A stretch of 32,369 bases of DNA from a virus: the IMG/VR virus record IMGVR_UViG_3300032006_000044, positions 1 to 32,369 of that record. One strand, 5' to 3'. Below are positions 5,494 to 32,098 of this stretch, one piece after another; position 1 is the stretch's first letter, and the number at the start of each line of letters is the position of its first letter. A program made the position numbers and the translations under genes. The notes under the pieces are model-generated. The model was not told the DNA's origin, ran no database searches, and saw only the letters and a list, made by a program, of their open reading frames with translations.

Positions 5494-6747
5494 TTAATAT
5501 CCTGCTACCACGTCCAGTATTTCGTGGTTGTCAATTTCGTAGTCGTAGTCATAAGCGACATTTGCAAGCTGGTCTATGTAAGCCAAAGCGTCCACAAGGT
5601 CGTCATGGGTTAATGGGTCAGGAAACTGGAACAATTGGTCCAAGAACCTAGCGTTCCACTCTCCTTTGTTTAAAGTAACGTAACCGTTTTCAAAGCGTCC
5701 CTGTAACGCCCACATTACCCTGTCAGTTTTTTTCTTGTTACCGTGGGTTAGTTCCTCAACTCTGAAGAACGTCCCGTACCGCTTCTGTAAGTCTGTCAGC
5801 GGAGACATTACGGCTTGTTTAGCAATGCCTCTTTCGATACCCACACTAACGGGCTTGTAGTCTCTAACTGCCTGAAATATTTTGGCGGCTGTCTCATCAA
5901 GGCTCCATCGCCCATAAATAATATTATCAACGTACCAACCGTTAGGGCTGACTTTGGTGACGGCAATCGCCGTTTCGTCCAACTTAGAATTTTTAGTTCT
6001 TTTCTTGTTAACTTCTTCAAAACCTGCCAAGTCAACAGCAATGTAGTAATCACCCTCCTCTTGTGAGTTTTCGGATACTTTAACCCATTCTTCTTTAAAC
6101 ATCTCAGAGCCACGAGCTTCAAAAGACGCCATGAACTCCTGACGGAATGCGTAGCTGGACATAGACTTCTTAGCTATATCTATTTCTTCTGCGTCCAACA
6201 ACGGATTGTCGTAGGACGTATAGTGCCACGTCTTGTAAGTTTTATCATCTCCTAACTCACCGTACTTGTACAGTTCGTAGAAGTGGTTACGACCCATAGG
6301 TGTACCTATGAACATCGCACAACCTTTTTGGTCAGCTAAAGCAGGTCTTAGTATCTGCTCAAAGACTTCAGGCTTCATATCAGCGTATTCGTCCAATACC
6401 AAAAACTTTAAAGACACACCACGCATTGTTTCCGGTCTGTCTGCACCTTTAAGACTAATAGTAGCCCCGTTGACCATTTTTATTTGCAGGTTGTTAATGT
6501 GGCTCCCCGAAATAACGGGATGCCCCAATTCCAACAACGTCTGCCACATAATGTCTCTAGCCTGTCCCTGAGTGGGTGCGACATAGAAAACATGCCCTCT
6601 ATCAGCTTGTAGAGCGTTAATTATCAACATCCAAGCAGCCAAACGCGACTTACCTGTACGTCTACCAGCAGCAACGATCTTAAAGCGAGTGGTGTCGTTC
6701 CAGACTTCCTGTTGCCACGGAAGTAACTCAATGTTAAGGTCTGTCAC
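5494..6747 (-). CDS. Terminase large subunit (packaging ATPase/nuclease)
   Basis: A 417-residue packaging motor. The ATPase domain shows Walker A (AAGRRTGKS, residues 26-34) and Walker B followed by the catalytic acid (FLVLDEYADM, about 113-122). The C-terminal nuclease domain shows the acidic positions YYIAVDLAGF (about 230) and THDDLVDALAYI (about 388). The start is GTG at 6747, overlapping the TGA of the methyltransferase-like gene (GTGA), with no clear ribosome site, so translation is probably coupled. It acts at the portal to cut and pump DNA into the prohead. Confidence 0.95.
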   Translation of the reverse strand: MTDLNIELLPWQQEVWNDTTRFKIVAAGRRTGKSRLAAWMLIINALQADRGHVFYVAPTQGQARDIMWQTLLELGHPVISGSHINNLQIKMVNGATISLKGADRPETMRGVSLKFLVLDEYADMKPEVFEQILRPALADQKGCAMFIGTPMGRNHFYELYKYGELGDDKTYKTWHYTSYDNPLLDAEEIDIAKKSMSSYAFRQEFMASFEARGSEMFKEEWVKVSENSQEEGDYYIAVDLAGFEEVNKKRTKNSKLDETAIAVTKVSPNGWYVDNIIYGRWSLDETAAKIFQAVRDYKPVSVGIERGIAKQAVMSPLTDLQKRYGTFFRVEELTHGNKKKTDRVMWALQGRFENGYVTLNKGEWNARFLDQLFQFPDPLTHDDLVDALAYIDQLANVAYDYDYEIDNHEILDVVAGY

Positions 6748-7679: not shown

Positions 7680-8033
7680 TTAGTATAACCACATGACAGC
7701 AGGTGTTCCTCTAGTGTCTACGTGTATAAATGTCTTGTCCACGCCAATACCAGTGAATCCTAGTTTCATAGCCTCTTTAACAATACAGTGTCTTTCGGCA
7801 GCAGTGGTAATTCTTATGTCTGCTGCTATACCCTGTGCATGAGTACCGGGTACAGCCTTTGCTGCCTCAATAGGATGATTAGTGGGGTGTCTAAAGCCGC
7901 TTGTAACGACAAAAGCAAAGTTACAGGCAAGACGCAAAGCGTCAAGCTTCTCTAGGAACTCAGGTTCCATACGATTCTCACCTGTTTCTTGGCAGTCAAA
8001 CTCTGACAATTGGAAAAACCTAAGCTTCTTCAT
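7680..8033 (-). CDS. M15-family peptidase, probable endolysin
   Basis: A 117-residue protein of the Peptidase_M15_3 type (D-Ala-D-Ala carboxypeptidase fold). Motifs: LSEFDCQETGENRM at the start, TSGFRHPTNHP (about 44-54), the zinc site HAQGIAADI (H and D ligands, about 70-78) and IHVDTR near the end (H ligand). Family members cleave peptide bonds in peptidoglycan; as a lone domain without signal peptide it is most likely the lysis endolysin, needing a holin. ATG 8033 is preceded by AAGGAG nine bases upstream and overlaps the upstream gene by 14 bases. Confidence 0.85.
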   Translation of the reverse strand: MKKLRFFQLSEFDCQETGENRMEPEFLEKLDALRLACNFAFVVTSGFRHPTNHPIEAAKAVPGTHAQGIAADIRITTAAERHCIVKEAMKLGFTGIGVDKTFIHVDTRGTPAVMWLY

Positions 8034-8427
8034 TAACGATTTCTCCTTCTATGACTTCATCGTTGTTCATGTCAACAGCGCCGACACCAGTAATATTGAT
8101 TTGTATAGCGTTACGGCCACCGTCCTTCACTACTTCCTTCTCAAAAGCACCTACGGGCAGCATACGGTCCATAATCAGCTTCCAAGCCGCTGATTGATTC
8201 TTATGATCGTTGTCCAAAGCGGCATCAAAGATGGTTTCCAAGACTTTTCTGGACTTTGGGGAGGCAAGCATACGAGATTTATACTCATTAATGATTGCTG
8301 CATCGCCTTTAGGCCTACCAAGTTGTTTTCTTGAACCTCTTTTTTTAGAATCAACTACTTGTTTTCTAGGTCTACCCCGTTTTCTGGGGATAGACACACT
8401 TTCTTCAGACAACAGCATTGCCTCCAT
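8020..8427 (-). CDS. AT-hook DNA-binding protein, possible small terminase subunit
   Basis: A 135-residue protein whose first 45 residues carry two AT-hook-like motifs (RKRGRPRK and LGRPKGD). The middle (KSRKVLETIFDAALDNDHKN, AAWKLIMDRMLPVGAFEK) is helical and the end is acidic. It is the first gene of the leftward packaging block (peptidase, methyltransferase, terminase large subunit, portal), and its size suits a small terminase, so that is the favoured role. The start is uncertain: ATG 8427 lacks a ribosome site, ATG 8418 is too close to GGAGG (8425-8421), and TTG at 8412 is spaced correctly from it. Confidence 0.6.
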   Translation of the reverse strand: MEAMLLSEESVSIPRKRGRPRKQVVDSKKRGSRKQLGRPKGDAAIINEYKSRMLASPKSRKVLETIFDAALDNDHKNQSAAWKLIMDRMLPVGAFEKEVVKDGGRNAIQINITGVGAVDMNNDEVIEGEIVNEEA

Positions 8428-8453
8428 ATTTAATTAGGAGATACTTTACAGTG

Positions 8454-8504
8454 CTTTAGAGTAATTATCTATTGGTTTATTCTTTAATAATCCCTCTAAA
8501 GAAT
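8454..8504 (-). promoter_or_regulatory. Leader with two mutually exclusive hairpins
   Basis: In the leftward transcript leader, ATTCTTTA (8479-8486) can pair with TAAAGAAT (8497-8504) over a ten-base loop, or CTTTAGAG (8454-8461) can pair with CTCTAAAG (8494-8501). The two pairings compete for 8497-8501. No T-run follows, so it is not a terminator. It may be a switchable RNA structure or a protein-binding site. Confidence 0.4.
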
Positions 8505-8525
8505 CACTCTAGGCTTACGCTTCAT

Positions 8526-8554
8526 ATTATAGCACATAAGTTAACAAAAGTCAA
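8526..8554 (-). promoter_or_regulatory. Strong sigma70 promoter for the packaging/portal block
   Basis: On the minus strand TTGACT (8554-8549) and a perfect TATAAT (8531-8526) are separated by exactly 17 bases. The predicted start is near 8519, leaving a leader of about 90 bases before the gene at 8427. This is the best sigma70 match in the window and would start the transcript that runs through the terminase and portal genes. Confidence 0.85.
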
Positions 8555-8696
8555 GAACTTTAGTGTACTTTTGCTGTAGTATGTCTACTTTATCCCGTCC
8601 TTTTATTCCTTTTAGTAATATAACACATTAATTAAATAAAACAAAGACTTATTATGCGTTATTTTTGATTACTTTTATTGACTTTTGCTCTTTTTT

Positions 8697-8713
8697 GTGC
8701 GCCAGTGGGAACC
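8697..8713 (+). repeat. 17-base direct repeat, copy A
   Basis: GTGCGCCAGTGGGAACC matches copy B at 8883-8899 at 15 of 17 positions. The two copies bracket the four sigma54 promoter matches. Copy A lies about 50-160 bases upstream of the predicted sigma54 start points, the usual range for an enhancer-binding activator site; this role is inference. Confidence 0.55.
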
Positions 8714-8764
8714 GTTAACTATAATAAACTCACACACGGCCCCCGGGGGTCACAATACACAAAC

Positions 8765-8781
8765 TTGGCACGAATCTTGCA
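8765..8781 (+). promoter_or_regulatory. Sigma54 (RpoN) promoter match 1
   Basis: TTGGCACGAATCTTGCA fits the sigma54 consensus TGGCACG-N4-TTGC(A/T) exactly, with GG at 8767-8768 (-24 element) and GC at 8779-8780 (-12 element), ten bases apart. Predicted start near 8792, reading right toward the antirestriction cassette. Confidence 0.75.
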
Positions 8782-8790
8782 AGCCAAAAG

Positions 8791-8807
8791 TTGGCATGGA
8801 TTTTGCA
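8791..8807 (+). promoter_or_regulatory. Sigma54 (RpoN) promoter match 2
   Basis: TTGGCATGGATTTTGCA has the invariant GG (8793-8794) and GC (8805-8806) with correct spacing and one change (C to T) from TGGCACG. It starts 26 bases after match 1 and shares flanking AAAAG and GGG-AAAC with match 3, showing that the two arose by duplication. Confidence 0.7.
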
Positions 8808-8820
8808 GGGGAAACAAAAG

Positions 8821-8837
8821 TTGGCACGATTCTTGCA
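8821..8837 (+). promoter_or_regulatory. Sigma54 (RpoN) promoter match 3
   Basis: TTGGCACGATTCTTGCA is an exact match, with GG at 8823-8824 and GC at 8835-8836. It starts 30 bases after match 2. Predicted start near 8848. Confidence 0.75.
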
Positions 8838-8857
8838 TGGGTAAACCATTGGTCCGA

Positions 8858-8874
8858 TTGGCACGAATATTGCA
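8858..8874 (+). promoter_or_regulatory. Sigma54 (RpoN) promoter match 4
   Basis: TTGGCACGAATATTGCA is an exact match, with GG at 8860-8861 and GC at 8872-8873. It starts 37 bases after match 3 and is the closest to the genes; predicted start near 8885, about 130 bases before the ATG at 9017. No sigma70 promoter is evident between it and that ATG. Confidence 0.78.
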
Positions 8875-8882
8875 AGGCGTGA

Positions 8883-8899
8883 GTGTGCCAGTGGGACCC
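8883..8899 (+). repeat. 17-base direct repeat, copy B
   Basis: GTGTGCCAGTGGGACCC is the second copy of the repeat at 8697-8713, 186 bases downstream. It begins at about the predicted start point of sigma54 promoter 4. In both copies it is followed within a few bases by a TTAA-containing stretch. Confidence 0.55.
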
Positions 8900-9016
8900 T
8901 TTAAGCTACATTAAAAACCTATGATTAGTGTTGTGTCTTTAAGCTATATCGCGTATCCTCCGCCTTCACATTAACAGTGGGTGTTTCCCCATGCCAACAA
9001 TAGGAGAACCAAAAGT

Positions 9017-9151
9017 ATGACCCGTAAAGAAAAACGCAAAGCGCGTAAGATTAAAGCGCGAGCGATCAAGACAAAACGCATCATCAAATTGGAGCGTGAA
9101 CACGAGCGCCGCAAAGCTAAGCTGCAACGATTAGCAGCAAAGGCCTCATAA
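9017..9151 (+). CDS. 44-residue highly basic micro-protein
   Basis: ATG 9017 has AGGAG with nine to ten bases of spacing. The product begins MTRKEKRKARKIKARAIKTK and ends LQRLAAKAS; about half of its residues are Lys or Arg, with a single predicted long helix. It is the first gene behind the sigma54 array and lies 24 bases ahead of the ArdC-like gene, so both are probably on one transcript. Function unknown; such peptides may bind nucleic acids. Codon choice (CGT, CGC, GCG) matches the next two genes rather than the later operon. Confidence 0.65.
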   Translation: MTRKEKRKARKIKARAIKTKRIIKLEREHERRKAKLQRLAAKAS

Positions 9152-9175
9152 AAAACCAACGAAAGGATAGTGAAA

Positions 9176-10054
9176 ATGATTAATGATAAAAACGCTGCAA
9201 TAATCGCTCAAAAATTCATTGATGCGATTCAAAACGGAACTGTAGACGGCACATGGGTTCGCCCGTGGAATGTGGGAGACAATGGAATGCCACATAATCC
9301 GGTATCCGATAAGCCATTTACCGGAACCAATGCGTTCATTCTACTAATGAATGGCGGCGGTCAATGGGCAACGTTTAAACAGTGGAAAAAATTAGGCGCT
9401 CAAGTACTTAAGCGGGAAGACGTAGGACCCGGAACGCACGTATTGAGGCCTATTATTAAAAAGGACCCGGCGAACCCGTTGGACGATGGCGTTCTACTAG
9501 GTTTTAAGCCATATGTGGTTTTTAGCGCGAACCAAGTTAGCGGATACGAAGCGCCCGTAATTGAAAAACCTGAATTTGATTTTCAATCTATTGAACGGGC
9601 GGAAAAATTCATAAAAGCTACGGGCGCGTCCATAAGATACGACGAAGTAGGTGTACGTGGCGCGTATTATAGTCCCGGTATGGATTCCATAAACATGCCA
9701 GCAAAAAGTCTGTTTAAGTCTGAAGAGGGTTTTTATTCGACAATCTGCCACGAATTAGCACATTGGTCTGGACATGAGTCGCGCTTAGACCGAAAGCTTA
9801 ACCACGGGCGCTTCGGCGACGAAGCGTATAGCTTTGAAGAATTGGTAGCGGAATTTACTAGCACGTTCTTGTGCGCGCACTTAGGCGTACATCAAGGGTT
9901 TAGGGACAATCACGCTAAGTATCTTAAATCGTGGGTTAAAGTGTTAAAAGACGAGCCTACCGCATTAACTAGCGCCGCCTCGATGGCGGATAAAGCGTTT
10001 AACTATCTCAAAACCTTTGACGTTGTCGGAAAGGATAAAATCCGCGCCGCATAA
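9176..10054 (+). CDS. ardC: ArdC-like antirestriction protein (zincin metallopeptidase fold)
   Basis: A 292-residue protein of the ArdC family. The N-terminal half (about 20-110) matches the ssDNA-binding region (WVRPWNVG, NPVSDKPFTGTNAFILLM, QWATFKQWKKLGAQV). The C-terminal half is an M78/zincin-like peptidase with HELAH (about 192-196) and a downstream acidic ligand (FEELVAEFTSTF, about 222). Plasmid ArdC protects incoming DNA from host restriction, and a phage copy would protect injected or replicating genomes. ATG 9176 is preferred over GTG 9170 because AGGA is eight bases from the ATG and only two from the GTG. It is followed by a terminator, and its GCG/CGC-rich codons set it apart from neighbours. 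Confidence 0.9.
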   Translation: MINDKNAAIIAQKFIDAIQNGTVDGTWVRPWNVGDNGMPHNPVSDKPFTGTNAFILLMNGGGQWATFKQWKKLGAQVLKREDVGPGTHVLRPIIKKDPANPLDDGVLLGFKPYVVFSANQVSGYEAPVIEKPEFDFQSIERAEKFIKATGASIRYDEVGVRGAYYSPGMDSINMPAKSLFKSEEGFYSTICHELAHWSGHESRLDRKLNHGRFGDEAYSFEELVAEFTSTFLCAHLGVHQGFRDNHAKYLKSWVKVLKDEPTALTSAASMADKAFNYLKTFDVVGKDKIRAA

Positions 10055-10916: not shown

Positions 10917-11098
10917 CTCCATATAGTTTAGCTAAAAAGCACTATAGAGAGCACTATAGAGAGCACCATAGAGAGCACTATAGACAGCACTATAGAGACA
11001 ACATAGAAGGCACTATAGAGAGCACTATAGATACCCTTGACTTACACCATAGAGTAGACTATAAACAATACTCTAATGACTATAGAGTACCTATATGA
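10907..11098 (+). CDS. Doubtful 63-residue repeat-encoded ORF
   Basis: An open frame over the 12-base repeats encodes several HYRE-type units (from about residue 12) and then changes phase into IEGTIESTID where one repeat lost a base. No good ribosome site precedes ATG 10907, which itself lies inside the promoter at 10888-10916 and so upstream of its predicted start. The stop codon overlaps the next ATG (ATGA), which is the only support for translation. The DNA repeats are more likely to matter than the peptide. Confidence 0.2.
   Translation: MLNSPYSLAKKHYREHYREHHREHYRQHYRDNIEGTIESTIDTLDLHHRVDYKQYSNDYRVPI
10938..11032 (+). repeat. Eight tandem 12-base repeats (AGCACTATAGAG)
   Basis: Units start at 10938, 10950, 10962, 10974, 10986, 10998, 11010 and 11021. 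Units 1, 2 and 5 are identical (AGCACTATAGAG); units 3, 4 and 8 differ at one base; unit 6 is degenerate (ACAACATAGAAG); unit 7 lacks the first base. Further loose copies are at 11044 (ACACCATAGAG) and 11079 (GACTATAGAG). The block lies between two sigma70 promoters, directly ahead of the replication operon, so iteron-like origin sites or repressor/activator sites are the leading ideas. Confidence 0.85.
11037..11065 (+). promoter_or_regulatory. Sigma70 promoter of the replication/nucleotide operon
   Basis: TTGACT (11037-11042), a 17-base spacer, and TATAAA (11060-11065). The predicted start near 11072 leaves a leader of only about 23 bases before ATG 11095. It overlaps the end of the repeat block. 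Confidence 0.75.
11069..11089 (+). repeat. Inverted repeat over the start point and ribosome site
   Basis: TACTCTA (11069-11075) and TAGAGTA (11083-11089) are perfect inverted copies over a seven-base loop. The GAG (11085-11087) that would serve as ribosome site for ATG 11095 is inside the right arm. It could act as operator or as an RNA hairpin hiding the ribosome site. Confidence 0.5.
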
Positions 11099-21430: not shown

Positions 21431-21811
21431 ATGTCCTACAGTGATAAAGTAATGGATCACTACGAGAACCCACGGAACGTCGGTAAGCTAAACGCTGACG
21501 ACGAAGACGTGGGTACTGGGATGGTGGGAGCACCTGCATGTGGTGACGTAATGAAGCTACAGATTAAAGTAGGCAACGAAGGCATCATTGAAGACGCCAA
21601 GTTTAAGACCTACGGATGCGGTAGTGCCATTGCGTCTAGCTCCCTGCTGACTGAGTGGGTCAAGGGCAGGACTCTGGAAGAAGCAGGTAGTATCAGGAAC
21701 ACACAGATTGCGGAAGAACTAGCGTTACCGCCTGTAAAGATACATTGTTCTGTGTTGGCTGAAGACGCTATTAAAGCTGCTATTAGTGACTACCAAAAGA
21801 AAAACAAATAG
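21431..21811 (+). CDS. iscU: IscU-type iron-sulfur cluster scaffold protein
   Basis: A full-length 126-residue IscU homologue (E. coli IscU is 128). All functional residues are present at the same numbers as in E. coli: C37 and D39 (APACGDVM), C63 (YGCGSAIASS), the HscA-chaperone motif LPPVK (99-103), H105 and C106 (IHCSVLAEDA). It assembles 2Fe-2S clusters from cysteine desulfurase and passes them to client proteins. It is the last gene of the rightward operon, three bases after nrdJ, and its stop faces the converging structural block. No other Isc gene is present, so it must plug into the host system. Confidence 0.95.
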   Translation: MSYSDKVMDHYENPRNVGKLNADDEDVGTGMVGAPACGDVMKLQIKVGNEGIIEDAKFKTYGCGSAIASSSLLTEWVKGRTLEEAGSIRNTQIAEELALPPVKIHCSVLAEDAIKAAISDYQKKNK

Positions 21812-29510: not shown

Positions 29511-30158
29511 TCAAGGTGTGTAGAAGATTAATTCTTCAGGATGTCTACCAGCATCGTGAGCTACAGCGTCAGACAAATACTTGTTTGCAATCTGAAAGTG
29601 TTCTGCTACTGAAGTACCTGTAGTTTCACCACGTTCTCTTACCGCTAAAGCAAGAGCTAGCTGTACAACAGGGTTTTCAGGAACTGCTAAAGAATCAGAG
29701 TCTGCACTTAACGCAGCATTGCGTTTTACTGCGTCTACTCTTAATGCGTACACTGCATCGGGTTTAGGATAAACGTCTATTGTCATGTCTCCATTACCGT
29801 CTACACCAGCATACGTGTAGTATCGTGGTGCTCCTGAAACAGGGTTATTTATGTGATACTGTTCGTCAAACCAATTATTAGTCTGGTACTGCATAACAAG
29901 ATTAGACGTGTCGTTAATAATGTTTAGCTCTTTTATTTTATCTGAGCTACCTGTCAGTGAATAGTTAGACGTACCGGAAACCGTATTAATTGCAAGTGTA
30001 GTTCTAAGCGCAGACCAATCCCACGAACTTTCTACTAAATCTTTAGCGTCGTTTACAAGATCACCTATAAGTTTACTGTAGCTGTCTGCTTGAACAGTAG
30101 ACACTTCGTTTTCTCTTAGTCGCCTAAGAACGCTATTAACTAGCTGCACATAAGTCAC
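29511..30158 (-). CDS. Tail adaptor (T7 gp11 tubular A-like)
   Basis: A 215-residue protein with LVNSVLRRLRENEVST at the start, LVNDAKDLVESSWDWSALRT (about 50) and a beta-rich middle (FDEQYHINNPVSGAPRYYTY), ending HPEELIFYTP. The VLRRLRE ... ESSWDWSALR pattern is typical of gp11-like head-tail adaptors that form the ring between portal and nozzle. The start is GTG 30158 with GGAGG nine bases upstream, overlapping the previous stop (GTGA). Confidence 0.85.
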   Translation of the reverse strand: MTYVQLVNSVLRRLRENEVSTVQADSYSKLIGDLVNDAKDLVESSWDWSALRTTLAINTVSGTSNYSLTGSSDKIKELNIINDTSNLVMQYQTNNWFDEQYHINNPVSGAPRYYTYAGVDGNGDMTIDVYPKPDAVYALRVDAVKRNAALSADSDSLAVPENPVVQLALALAVRERGETTGTSVAEHFQIANKYLSDAVAHDAGRHPEELIFYTP

Positions 30159-32098
30159 GAGAACATTCCTCCGTCTCTCATAAGACCTTGTAAAACAGGT
30201 CTTGTAGGTTCTGTATATAAAGTTGCTGTTTGAAGATTTCTAAGCGGAGTTATCATATCTTGAAACAAAAACTCTACGGGTGTAAAAGGAGGTAAATTTA
30301 AATCCCGTCTATTTTGAGCAAGATCGGCCTGTTCAAACTTAATTCGTCCGCCTCCTCCGCCTCCGCTTGGCGGTTCTGGTTCTGGTGGTGTGGGCGTAGG
30401 TGGTCCAGTAAAAGGATCATCTGGCGGCGGTGGTGGTTGTGTTAAAGGATCTTCTTGAAATGATTTGTTATGTACAATAACACCGTCTACAGCATACGTG
30501 TGTGTTTCTGCTGTAGTAAAGTTATAAACTTTTACTGTTTGTTCTTCGCTACTAAGTTTTTTAACTTCTTCCGTTCCGTCTACAGTTATCAACGTATCGC
30601 CTATATTAAGCTGTTGTACGTCAATGCCGTATGACATATAAAGGTCTTTAGAAGCTTCTGAATTGTTAGATTTCCAACCTTCTTCCGTCAAAAATGGATG
30701 AGCTTCAGTTGTAACAATTCTGTTGTTTATTGTCCAAAGAGTTCTTGTTTCTTCAGGAATATCGTGAACATAAACAACTGTATCCGTCAAACCGTCTTTT
30801 GCAAGAACAACATCATTAACTTCTATGTCTTCAATATTTTTTAAGGTTCCGTCTGCCATATTTACAGGCGTACCCGCTACAAAACAAGATAACCTATCGT
30901 CTCGTTTTTCTGTAGTGCTTGGCCCTCCGCTTCCCGGTCTAACTTTAGGCTTATCATCAGGCGAAATTACTGGTCCAAGAGGTTTTTTTGGTGGAATTTT
31001 GGTGTCATCTGGAGGAGGACCGTCATCTAGTGGGGGCCTTCTATTGGTGTCGTCAACTCTTCCTGTATTGGGCGGCGGCGTAGGAGTATTAGTAGAATCA
31101 TTAGGATAGTCATCACTATTGTCGCCTATACCGTCGTTATCACTATCAACGGTTTCTGTTGGGTCGTCAGGAAAAGCGTCTTGTGAATCTGGAACCCCGT
31201 CACCATCAGAGTCAAGATCAGTACCAACAGGCGGTGTTTCAGTAGGACCTTCGTCTAAACGAAGCGTCGGTATAACTTCTGTATTTACCCTATTAATAAG
31301 ATCGCCTACCCACCAAACGCTAGGGTCAATAACACCTTCAAATTCTGAGTCAAAAATGCTTCCAATTACGTTACCAGCTATATCAAGAATATCCCCTACG
31401 CTGTTTACTGAACCAACGTCTTCAAGTTCACCTAAAATATCTGAAGCTTTATCAAAAAGTTTTTGAGGAAGACCTTGTATATCGCCCCATAATTCTCCTA
31501 TTTTTGCAGCAGCAGAACTAGCAAAAACATTGTTTCCGTTTTCGTCAGTTATGTCTATTTCTAAAATACCGTCCTTTATAAAAGGAATGCCAGTATTAAT
31601 AATTAGTGTTTTACGGCCTCCCGGCTCACCGTAAACTTTTATGCCTATTCCACCACCACCAAGTAAAGCTTTATCGAGAAGTGTTGAAAGCTCTTTATCT
31701 AACTCATTGTCGCTTTGTAAAATTTTAGCTAATTCAGCTTCCGACATTTGCTGAAGCATCATAGTATATTTTTCAAGCTCTAAATCTTGTGCTGCTTGAT
31801 CCCCTGTTAAATCTGGATCTGTTTCAAAAGTACCTTCTTCTTCAGCACCGTCGTTTACAACTTCTTCTCCTTTTAAGAGTCTTACAAGATTCTTAACGTC
31901 AGCTTCTTCATAACCAGAGGCAGCTTGTAGCAACTCCATTACATTGTTTATTTCGCCACTTTGTCTTGCGCCGTCTCTTAACCATTGATAAAAAAACTTT
32001 AAGTCTGGATCACTAACAGTACCTATAAATGTATCAAGTTCGCTCCATCTTTCGTTTGGCCTATTTGGATCTCTTTTATAATTTCGATTCTCAGTCAT
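30155..32098 (-). CDS. Virion-block protein with TSP3-type calcium repeats and a Hint autoprocessing domain
   Basis: A 647-residue mosaic. Residues 1-290: helical then mixed region, no known motif. Residues 294-335: two thrombospondin type 3-like calcium loops (DLDSDGDGVPDSQDAFPDD; VDSDNDGIGDNSDDYPND). Residues 340-400: Pro/Asp/Lys-rich linker. Residues 405-544: Hint (Hedgehog/intein) domain with Cys405 (SCFVAGTPVNMADGT), block B T464-E-A-H467 (TTEAHPFL) and the terminal His543-Asn544 (VIVHNKS). There is no homing endonuclease insert. The residue after Asn is Lys, so normal protein splicing is unlikely and self-cleavage is more likely. Residues 550-647: Pro/Gly-rich linker and a short folded tail ending MRDGGMFS. 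It sits between the holin-like gene and the tail adaptor; a processed tail appendage is inferred. Confidence 0.8.
   Translation of the reverse strand: MTENRNYKRDPNRPNERWSELDTFIGTVSDPDLKFFYQWLRDGARQSGEINNVMELLQAASGYEEADVKNLVRLLKGEEVVNDGAEEEGTFETDPDLTGDQAAQDLELEKYTMMLQQMSEAELAKILQSDNELDKELSTLLDKALLGGGGIGIKVYGEPGGRKTLIINTGIPFIKDGILEIDITDENGNNVFASSAAAKIGELWGDIQGLPQKLFDKASDILGELEDVGSVNSVGDILDIAGNVIGSIFDSEFEGVIDPSVWWVGDLINRVNTEVIPTLRLDEGPTETPPVGTDLDSDGDGVPDSQDAFPDDPTETVDSDNDGIGDNSDDYPNDSTNTPTPPPNTGRVDDTNRRPPLDDGPPPDDTKIPPKKPLGPVISPDDKPKVRPGSGGPSTTEKRDDRLSCFVAGTPVNMADGTLKNIEDIEVNDVVLAKDGLTDTVVYVHDIPEETRTLWTINNRIVTTEAHPFLTEEGWKSNNSEASKDLYMSYGIDVQQLNIGDTLITVDGTEEVKKLSSEEQTVKVYNFTTAETHTYAVDGVIVHNKSFQEDPLTQPPPPPDDPFTGPPTPTPPEPEPPSGGGGGGRIKFEQADLAQNRRDLNLPPFTPVEFLFQDMITPLRNLQTATLYTEPTRPVLQGLMRDGGMFS

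Follow-up and report, generated by a model that had tools for sequence, protein, structure and literature searches.

The window analysed here is the whole of IMG/VR virus record IMGVR_UViG_3300032006_000044, a stretch of 32,369 nucleotides whose genes run outwards from a divergent control region at positions 8428–9016 (Table 1). Leftward of this region lie the terminase and structural genes (candidate TerS, an endolysin-like peptidase, TerL, portal and major head protein), and rightward the early and replication genes, first a 44-residue basic ORF, an ArdC-like gene and genes for a phrog_2554 protein and a pyrimidine-dimer glycosylase-like protein, and then those for a T7-type primase-helicase, a family A DNA polymerase, a class II ribonucleotide reductase and IscU. 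The closest named polymerase (50%) is that of Pelagibacter phage HTVC103P, whose genome is arranged on the same general lines, its early genes and a leftward TerS lying at opposite ends; no DNA similarity was found between named phages and the array region described below. The IscU iron-sulphur scaffold is full-length (21431–21811) and its closest solved structures are those of Haemophilus and E. coli IscU, a likeness hinting at a gammaproteobacterial host. Two further coding features were noted: a 12-bp tandem repeat (7.9 copies, 10938–11031) inside a small ORF, encoding a HYREHYREHHREHYRQ-type repeat protein, and an apparent intein/Hint-like segment (CFVAGTPVNMADGTLKNIEDIEVNDVVLA ... AVDGVIVHN), recognized by eye only, in the structural-region protein at 30155–32098.

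Table 1. Features of the divergent control region and its neighbouring genes (window coordinates).
Feature	Position	Strand	Sequence or remarks
Terminase large subunit (TerL)	5494..6747	-	phrog_2, 2.3e-43
Candidate terminase small subunit (TerS), first leftward gene	8020..8427	-	synteny with HTVC103P; no profile match
Sigma70-type promoter, leftward terminase/structural operon	8526..8554	-	TTGACT-17-TATAAT, 11/12, extended -10
Upstream frame block U	8697..8729	+	GTGCGCCAGTGGGAACCGTTAACTATAATAAAC; kept across the clade with or without array; recurs in relatives
C-rich tract opening the variable slot	8738..8752	+	GGCCCCCGGGGGTCA; CCCCTCCCCCG in relatives
Sigma54-type site 1	8765..8781	+	TTGGCACGAATCTTGCA; exact match
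Sigma54-type site 2	8791..8807	+	TTGGCATGGATTTTGCA; exact match; in 30-bp tandem duplication with site 3
Sigma54-type site 3	8821..8837	+	TTGGCACGATTCTTGCA; exact match
Sigma54-type site 4	8858..8874	+	TTGGCACGAATATTGCA; exact match
Downstream frame block D, closing the variable slot	8883..8913	+	GTGTGCCAGTGGGACCCTTTAAGCTACATTA; GTTGACAAGTGTGTGGACTTATGTTGGWCCC in relatives
First early ORF	9017..9151	+	44-aa basic protein (MTRKEKRKARK...); AGGAG upstream; no family match
ArdC-like antirestriction protein	9170..10054	+	ArdcN PF08401 and zincin-like MPTase-PolyVal PF18818; phrog_7245

Within the control region the pattern TTGGCAYGNNNNTTGCA is matched exactly four times, always on the + strand, with site-to-site steps of 26, 30 and 37. 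The initial annotation had described four same-strand sites within 110 bases and taken three of them as exact; an exact pattern scan bears out the number and the strand and finds all four to be perfect, and a repeat search confirms that sites 2 and 3 lie in a 30-base tandem duplication. In every site the −24 GG and −12 GC elements are ten bases apart within TTGGCACG-N4-TTGCW, and all four face the ORF at 9017 at a distance in keeping with sigma54 promoters, in agreement with the earlier view of sigma54-type sites directed into the early operon. By our own estimate, which counts 12 fixed bases and one two-fold base on both strands, a window should contain about 0.002 exact matches, so that four within 110 bases cannot be put down to chance, as had been argued from the start. 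Elsewhere in the window, TTGGCAYG-N4-TTGCA has no match with two or fewer mismatches; the remaining 12 matches have three mismatches each, and the number found at that tolerance (16, with 13.9 expected) leaves them at chance level. The motif is thus not comparably dense in other parts of the genome, and the statement that the window holds no other clear match stands. A reversed-motif control and a search for further exact sites both returned zero over the whole record, which is the same 32,369 bases. If site 4 follows sigma54 rules, its transcript would start about 12 bases past the GC, near 8885, with a predicted 5′ leader of about 132 nt before the ATG at 9017.

An extended sigma54 consensus was reportedly set out by Barrios in 1999. 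Across 874 sites, the bases that our search pattern leaves free also match the sigma54 consensus, with T or C before TGG, A or T after TTGC, and purines at −2 and −4 (for the consensus and E. coli binding sites, see PMC12316311 and PMC4591121). Judged from these sequences, host RNA polymerase-sigma54 very probably binds the array sites. The sigma54 activator domain (PF00158) was found in 0 of 30 records and the sigma54 DNA-binding domain (PF04552) in 0 of 46, both sets consisting of clade relatives and other array phages and both searches detecting their positive controls; nor did reading through the window ORFs reveal anything like sigma54 or an activator. These two counts speak against a phage-encoded sigma54 regulatory circuit in the records covered, and the earlier remark that no activator is encoded holds for the window ORFs as for the 30 records. 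Neither an NtrC site nor, apart from the clade frame described below, any shared motif was found beside the arrays, and with no conserved activator-binding site the proposed wiring of the phage to a nitrogen, stress or envelope signal is not supported. Sigma54 activators present at high level can work without a DNA site.

For spacings between same-strand neighbours, each of 86 nucleotide-linked groups contributed a given value no more than once; this gave five counts at 17–19 bp, none at 20–23 bp, 66 at 24–29 bp (mode 26) and two at 30–32 bp. Face-to-face pairs cluster at 18–22 bp and back-to-back pairs at 23–25 bp. The 24-bp floor for same-strand neighbours is like the footprint of the sigma54 closed complex, about 24 bp, which suggests that the sites are occupied side by side. 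Helical phasing, with peaks at 26, 37, 47 and 57, is suggestive; per-cluster counting leaves firm only the 24–29 mode, the empty 20–23 interval and the near-empty 30–32 interval.

Many IMG/VR phages share the terminase of the window. In 49 terminase-adjacent regions, chosen by the terminase and not by the motif, we counted 54 sites in the forward direction, 5 in reverse and none for the control motif, with at least one site in 19 of these relatives and at least two in 14. On the TerL tree, the subclade that includes the window (support 95/87) has 18 members, each with an array, and arrays are also present in outer lineages, which were picked by motif so that their array rate is biased upward; in the remaining lineages the array was lost or never present. 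Clade arrays hold from one site to nine or more, and over 104 regions, motif-found ones included, 261 sites point forward into the early genes and 21 point away, counts that do not represent independent events since tandem duplication preserves orientation. Asking, as the initial annotation had proposed, whether arrays are conserved upstream of ardC in relatives gave a divided answer: the arrays are conserved, but ArdC is absent downstream in nearly all relatives that bear the array at the same place, and the first early gene varies. The array therefore belongs to the early operon as such. ArdC is rejected as the generally controlled gene, and with it goes the specific link to antirestriction. 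In the window itself the array does not front a stand-alone ArdC cassette, as had been thought, but lies in the divergent region, and the gene directly behind it is the 44-codon basic ORF (ATG 9017), ArdC being second.

Across the clade the frame around the array runs in the order block U, C-rich tract, variable slot and block D. Block U is a direct repeat of block D (86% in the window repeat search), and the two may be early promoter or regulator sites of the clade's own; in relatives, blocks U and D also bear inverted GTCAACCCC / GGGGTTGAC ends around the slot. The slot itself contains sigma54 arrays, DnaA-box arrays (TTATCCACA), occasionally both and often neither: with thresholds of at least two sigma54 sites and at least three DnaA boxes, 47 terminase-selected regions comprised 11 with sigma54 only, 7 with DnaA only, 1 with both and 28 with neither. 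DnaA boxes numbered 73 in 94 clade regions, against 2 reversed-control matches, and none occurs in the window. In the sister phages L141, L136, L143, L146, L145, L129 and L135, 5–7 DnaA boxes (TTATCCACA, with TTATGCACA variants) in steps of about 12 bp replace the sigma54 sites in the slot. Pelagibacter phage HTVC103P has a U-like block and the C tract, no sigma54 site, and a host that we take to be without rpoN.

Phage early transcription is usually ascribed to the housekeeping sigma70. In the window, no sigma70 match was found on the + (early) strand of the control region, and the leftward operon has its own sigma70-type promoter (Table 1); a late-strand match of at least 10/12 is likewise present in 44 of 54 array-bearing relatives. 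Since an early-strand sigma70 match is also absent from 32 of 33 array-less relatives, the clade starts early transcription some other way, and the array is not essential for it.

The same kind of array recurs at a like place in many unrelated phages and almost never in bacterial genomes. At least 120 stretches in IMG/VR carry the two-site pattern, against 2 for the reversed-motif control, and at least 119 carry the three-site pattern, against 13 matches in 257 Gb of genome sequence from bacteria and archaea, several of these 13 being repeats of another kind. Two exact scans of complete records, one of 30 and the other of 34, found the reversed motif in none of them, and such controls lead us to reject chance or low complexity as an explanation. 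For position, 50 other records were searched for a terminase and the 28 with a usable match were measured; record G055, with a weak TerL match and scattered sites, was excluded. In these 28 records, which span 23–94 kb, the array lies 5′ of TerL in 27, within 2.6 kb in 17 and at a median of 2.3 kb (KS vs uniform, p=4e-16), distances that assume circular maps in records that are not a random sample. Single-direction arrays in the other records face away from TerL in 21 of 24 cases.

Several phages have face-to-face arrays (3+3 or 5+5 sites). In record G041 (L247), five-site arrays at 55330–55456 and 58106–58224, with 26–28 bp spacing, face each other across 2.6 kb beside the terminase. Two phages of 94 and 148 kb (L053 in record G001 and L061 in record G002) have 15–16 exact sites within one stretch of about 12–13 kb, not as one array. 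RNA hairpins as the source of face-to-face pairs are disfavoured: the N4 parts of facing sites do not match, which argues that it is the motif that was selected and not a hairpin. One facing pair in phage VCPH forms a strong hairpin. Among the 13 bacterial and archaeal three-site matches is a Methylococcaceae MAG (L210, 5266–5402) in which four sigma54 sites face against the genes of a satellite-like element with integrase, AlpA and D5-type primase, adjoining pheT and an IHF/HU gene.

Akin to these arrays, the sites of the T5-like Vibrio phages pVp-1, VCPH, D260 and D419 and of Pseudomonas phage SYP are concentrated in the early/pre-early region, near A1/A2 where annotated, with several face-to-face pairs; about 285 Vibrio phage records have a match to this stretch, at an E near 1 per record that is to be read with the exact D419 scan. 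In pVp-1, VCPH and D419, DnaA boxes accompany the sigma54-type sites in this pre-early/injection-stop region, next to the pre-early genes for DNA transfer, but the sites are sparse and often face to face and the phage family is another. Bacterial sigma54 (RpoN) promoters (−24/−12, TTGGCACG-N4-TTGCW) have the same sequence, the same strict GG-N10-GC and the same flanking preferences; they are normally single with activator sites, whereas the phage arrays hold at least three perfect copies about 26 bp apart with no recognisable activator site, and triples, unlike in the phages, are nearly absent from bacterial genomes. Tandem host-polymerase promoters for early genes are also found as A1-A2-A3 in T7, a related phage type (PolA, T7-like primase-helicase), the difference being that T7 uses sigma70, which opens unaided, and sigma54 requires ATP-driven activation. 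DnaA-box clusters, as in oriC and datA, are likewise arrays of sites for a host regulator and occupy the same slot in the sister phages, although the protein is a different one. The sigma54 element type is already known; what is apparently undescribed is its recurrent use by phages as arrays at a specific position. The literature searched, from which most subscription journals are missing, yielded no report of such arrays in phages; the nearest papers describe phi1422 and Q19, phages that encode single sigma54-type regulators (PMC3391216, PMC7693777).

For this phage we favour, with some reserve, the view that the sites are early promoters set in tandem and switched on by a host activator, because the direction of the sites is conserved and there is no early-strand sigma70 match here. 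The array would present high-affinity sites for host RNA polymerase-sigma54 in the divergent region by the terminase genes, facing the early operon; on entering the cell, phage DNA would draw in this scarce holoenzyme and keep it in closed complexes at several closely set sites. A host enhancer-binding protein in its activated state, working either from solution or at a distance, would then open these complexes and so start the early operon (basic ORF, ArdC and replication genes). Binding at the sites, transcription from them and the identity of the activator are all things that we infer from the DNA. Neighbouring open complexes need more room than a spacing of 26–30 bp gives. Against a promoter role stand the face-to-face alternation in other phages, which is not expected of simple promoters and raises the prospect of a non-promoter role, and the failure to find an activator-binding site conserved beside the arrays.

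One such role would be titration, in which the array is a sink for sigma54 or its holoenzyme and, once phage DNA has replicated, shuts host sigma54 genes, the targets being flagella, pili, type VI secretion or RtcR- or PspF-controlled responses. Before replication, the four sites of a single infecting genome are too few to tie up the sigma54 of a cell, and a sink needs no orientation, yet the clade ratio is 261:21 forward and the other records mostly run the same way; we regard titration as unlikely, even though the perfect consensus, the several copies, the packing at about 26 bp and the lack of a conserved activator site would all suit it. So would the alternating face-to-face arrays (3+3, 5+5) with mismatched N4 segments, the Methylococcaceae satellite-like element whose four sites face against its own genes, and the linkage of RtcR-like sigma54 activators to defence loci (PMC11090510). 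It is quite improbable, in our estimation, that the slot is a docking place of host-protein sites (sigma54 or DnaA) at the packaging-proximal genome end, serving as an entry or first-replication handle, a stop signal or an origin and not as promoters. The replacement of sigma54 by DnaA-box arrays in the sister-phage slot (11 vs 7, both in 1; n=47), the arrays adjoining the terminase in unrelated phages and the pre-early sites beside the A1/A2 DNA-transfer genes of T5-like Vibrio phages are what speaks for docking, as does the T5 injection stop signal, whose repeats, palindromes and DnaA boxes are thought to engage host components (PMC13250531). However, 28 of the 47 relatives have neither array, docking would not require directional sigma54 sites, and the nearness of the array to the physical genome ends is assumed for this clade. 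That the repeats are iterons or operators of a phage protein, resembling sigma54 sites by coincidence, is hardly credible: both typically take the form of dense repeats close to early genes, and some of ours are tandem duplications, but motif and flanking preferences equal the host sigma54 consensus across 86 nucleotide-unlinked groups and in many unrelated phages with differing adjacent genes, no phage sigma54-like DNA-binding domain was found (PF04552, 0/46 records), and HTVC103P, with its presumably rpoN-less host, shows the frame without any of the sites.

Titration and docking as explanations both draw on the face-to-face arrays, the missing activator site, the close packing and the way in which DnaA boxes and sigma54 sites replace one another, and either may hold in other phages even if the array in the window is a promoter. 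A broader proposition, which we entertain as doubtful, is that many unrelated phages have a dedicated packaging-proximal slot of sigma54 or DnaA arrays where DNA entering the cell picks up inactive RNA polymerase-sigma54 (or DnaA), so as to control entry, first replication or host reprogramming, ordinary transcription not being the main work of the arrays. Whichever of these applies, the recurrence of tight arrays of perfect sites suggests that many phages in the environment either rely on the signal-gated sigma54 polymerase or put it out of action. If so, infection would be tied to the activator state of the host (membrane stress, RNA damage, nitrogen, motility), and a host range limited to RpoN-bearing bacteria is suggested, of which the array would be a sequence mark. 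A sigma54 role is testable in cultured phages of P. aeruginosa (Kat) and Vibrio (D419 group, pVp-1, VCPH) with related sites, the Pakpunavirus Kat having four exact ones.
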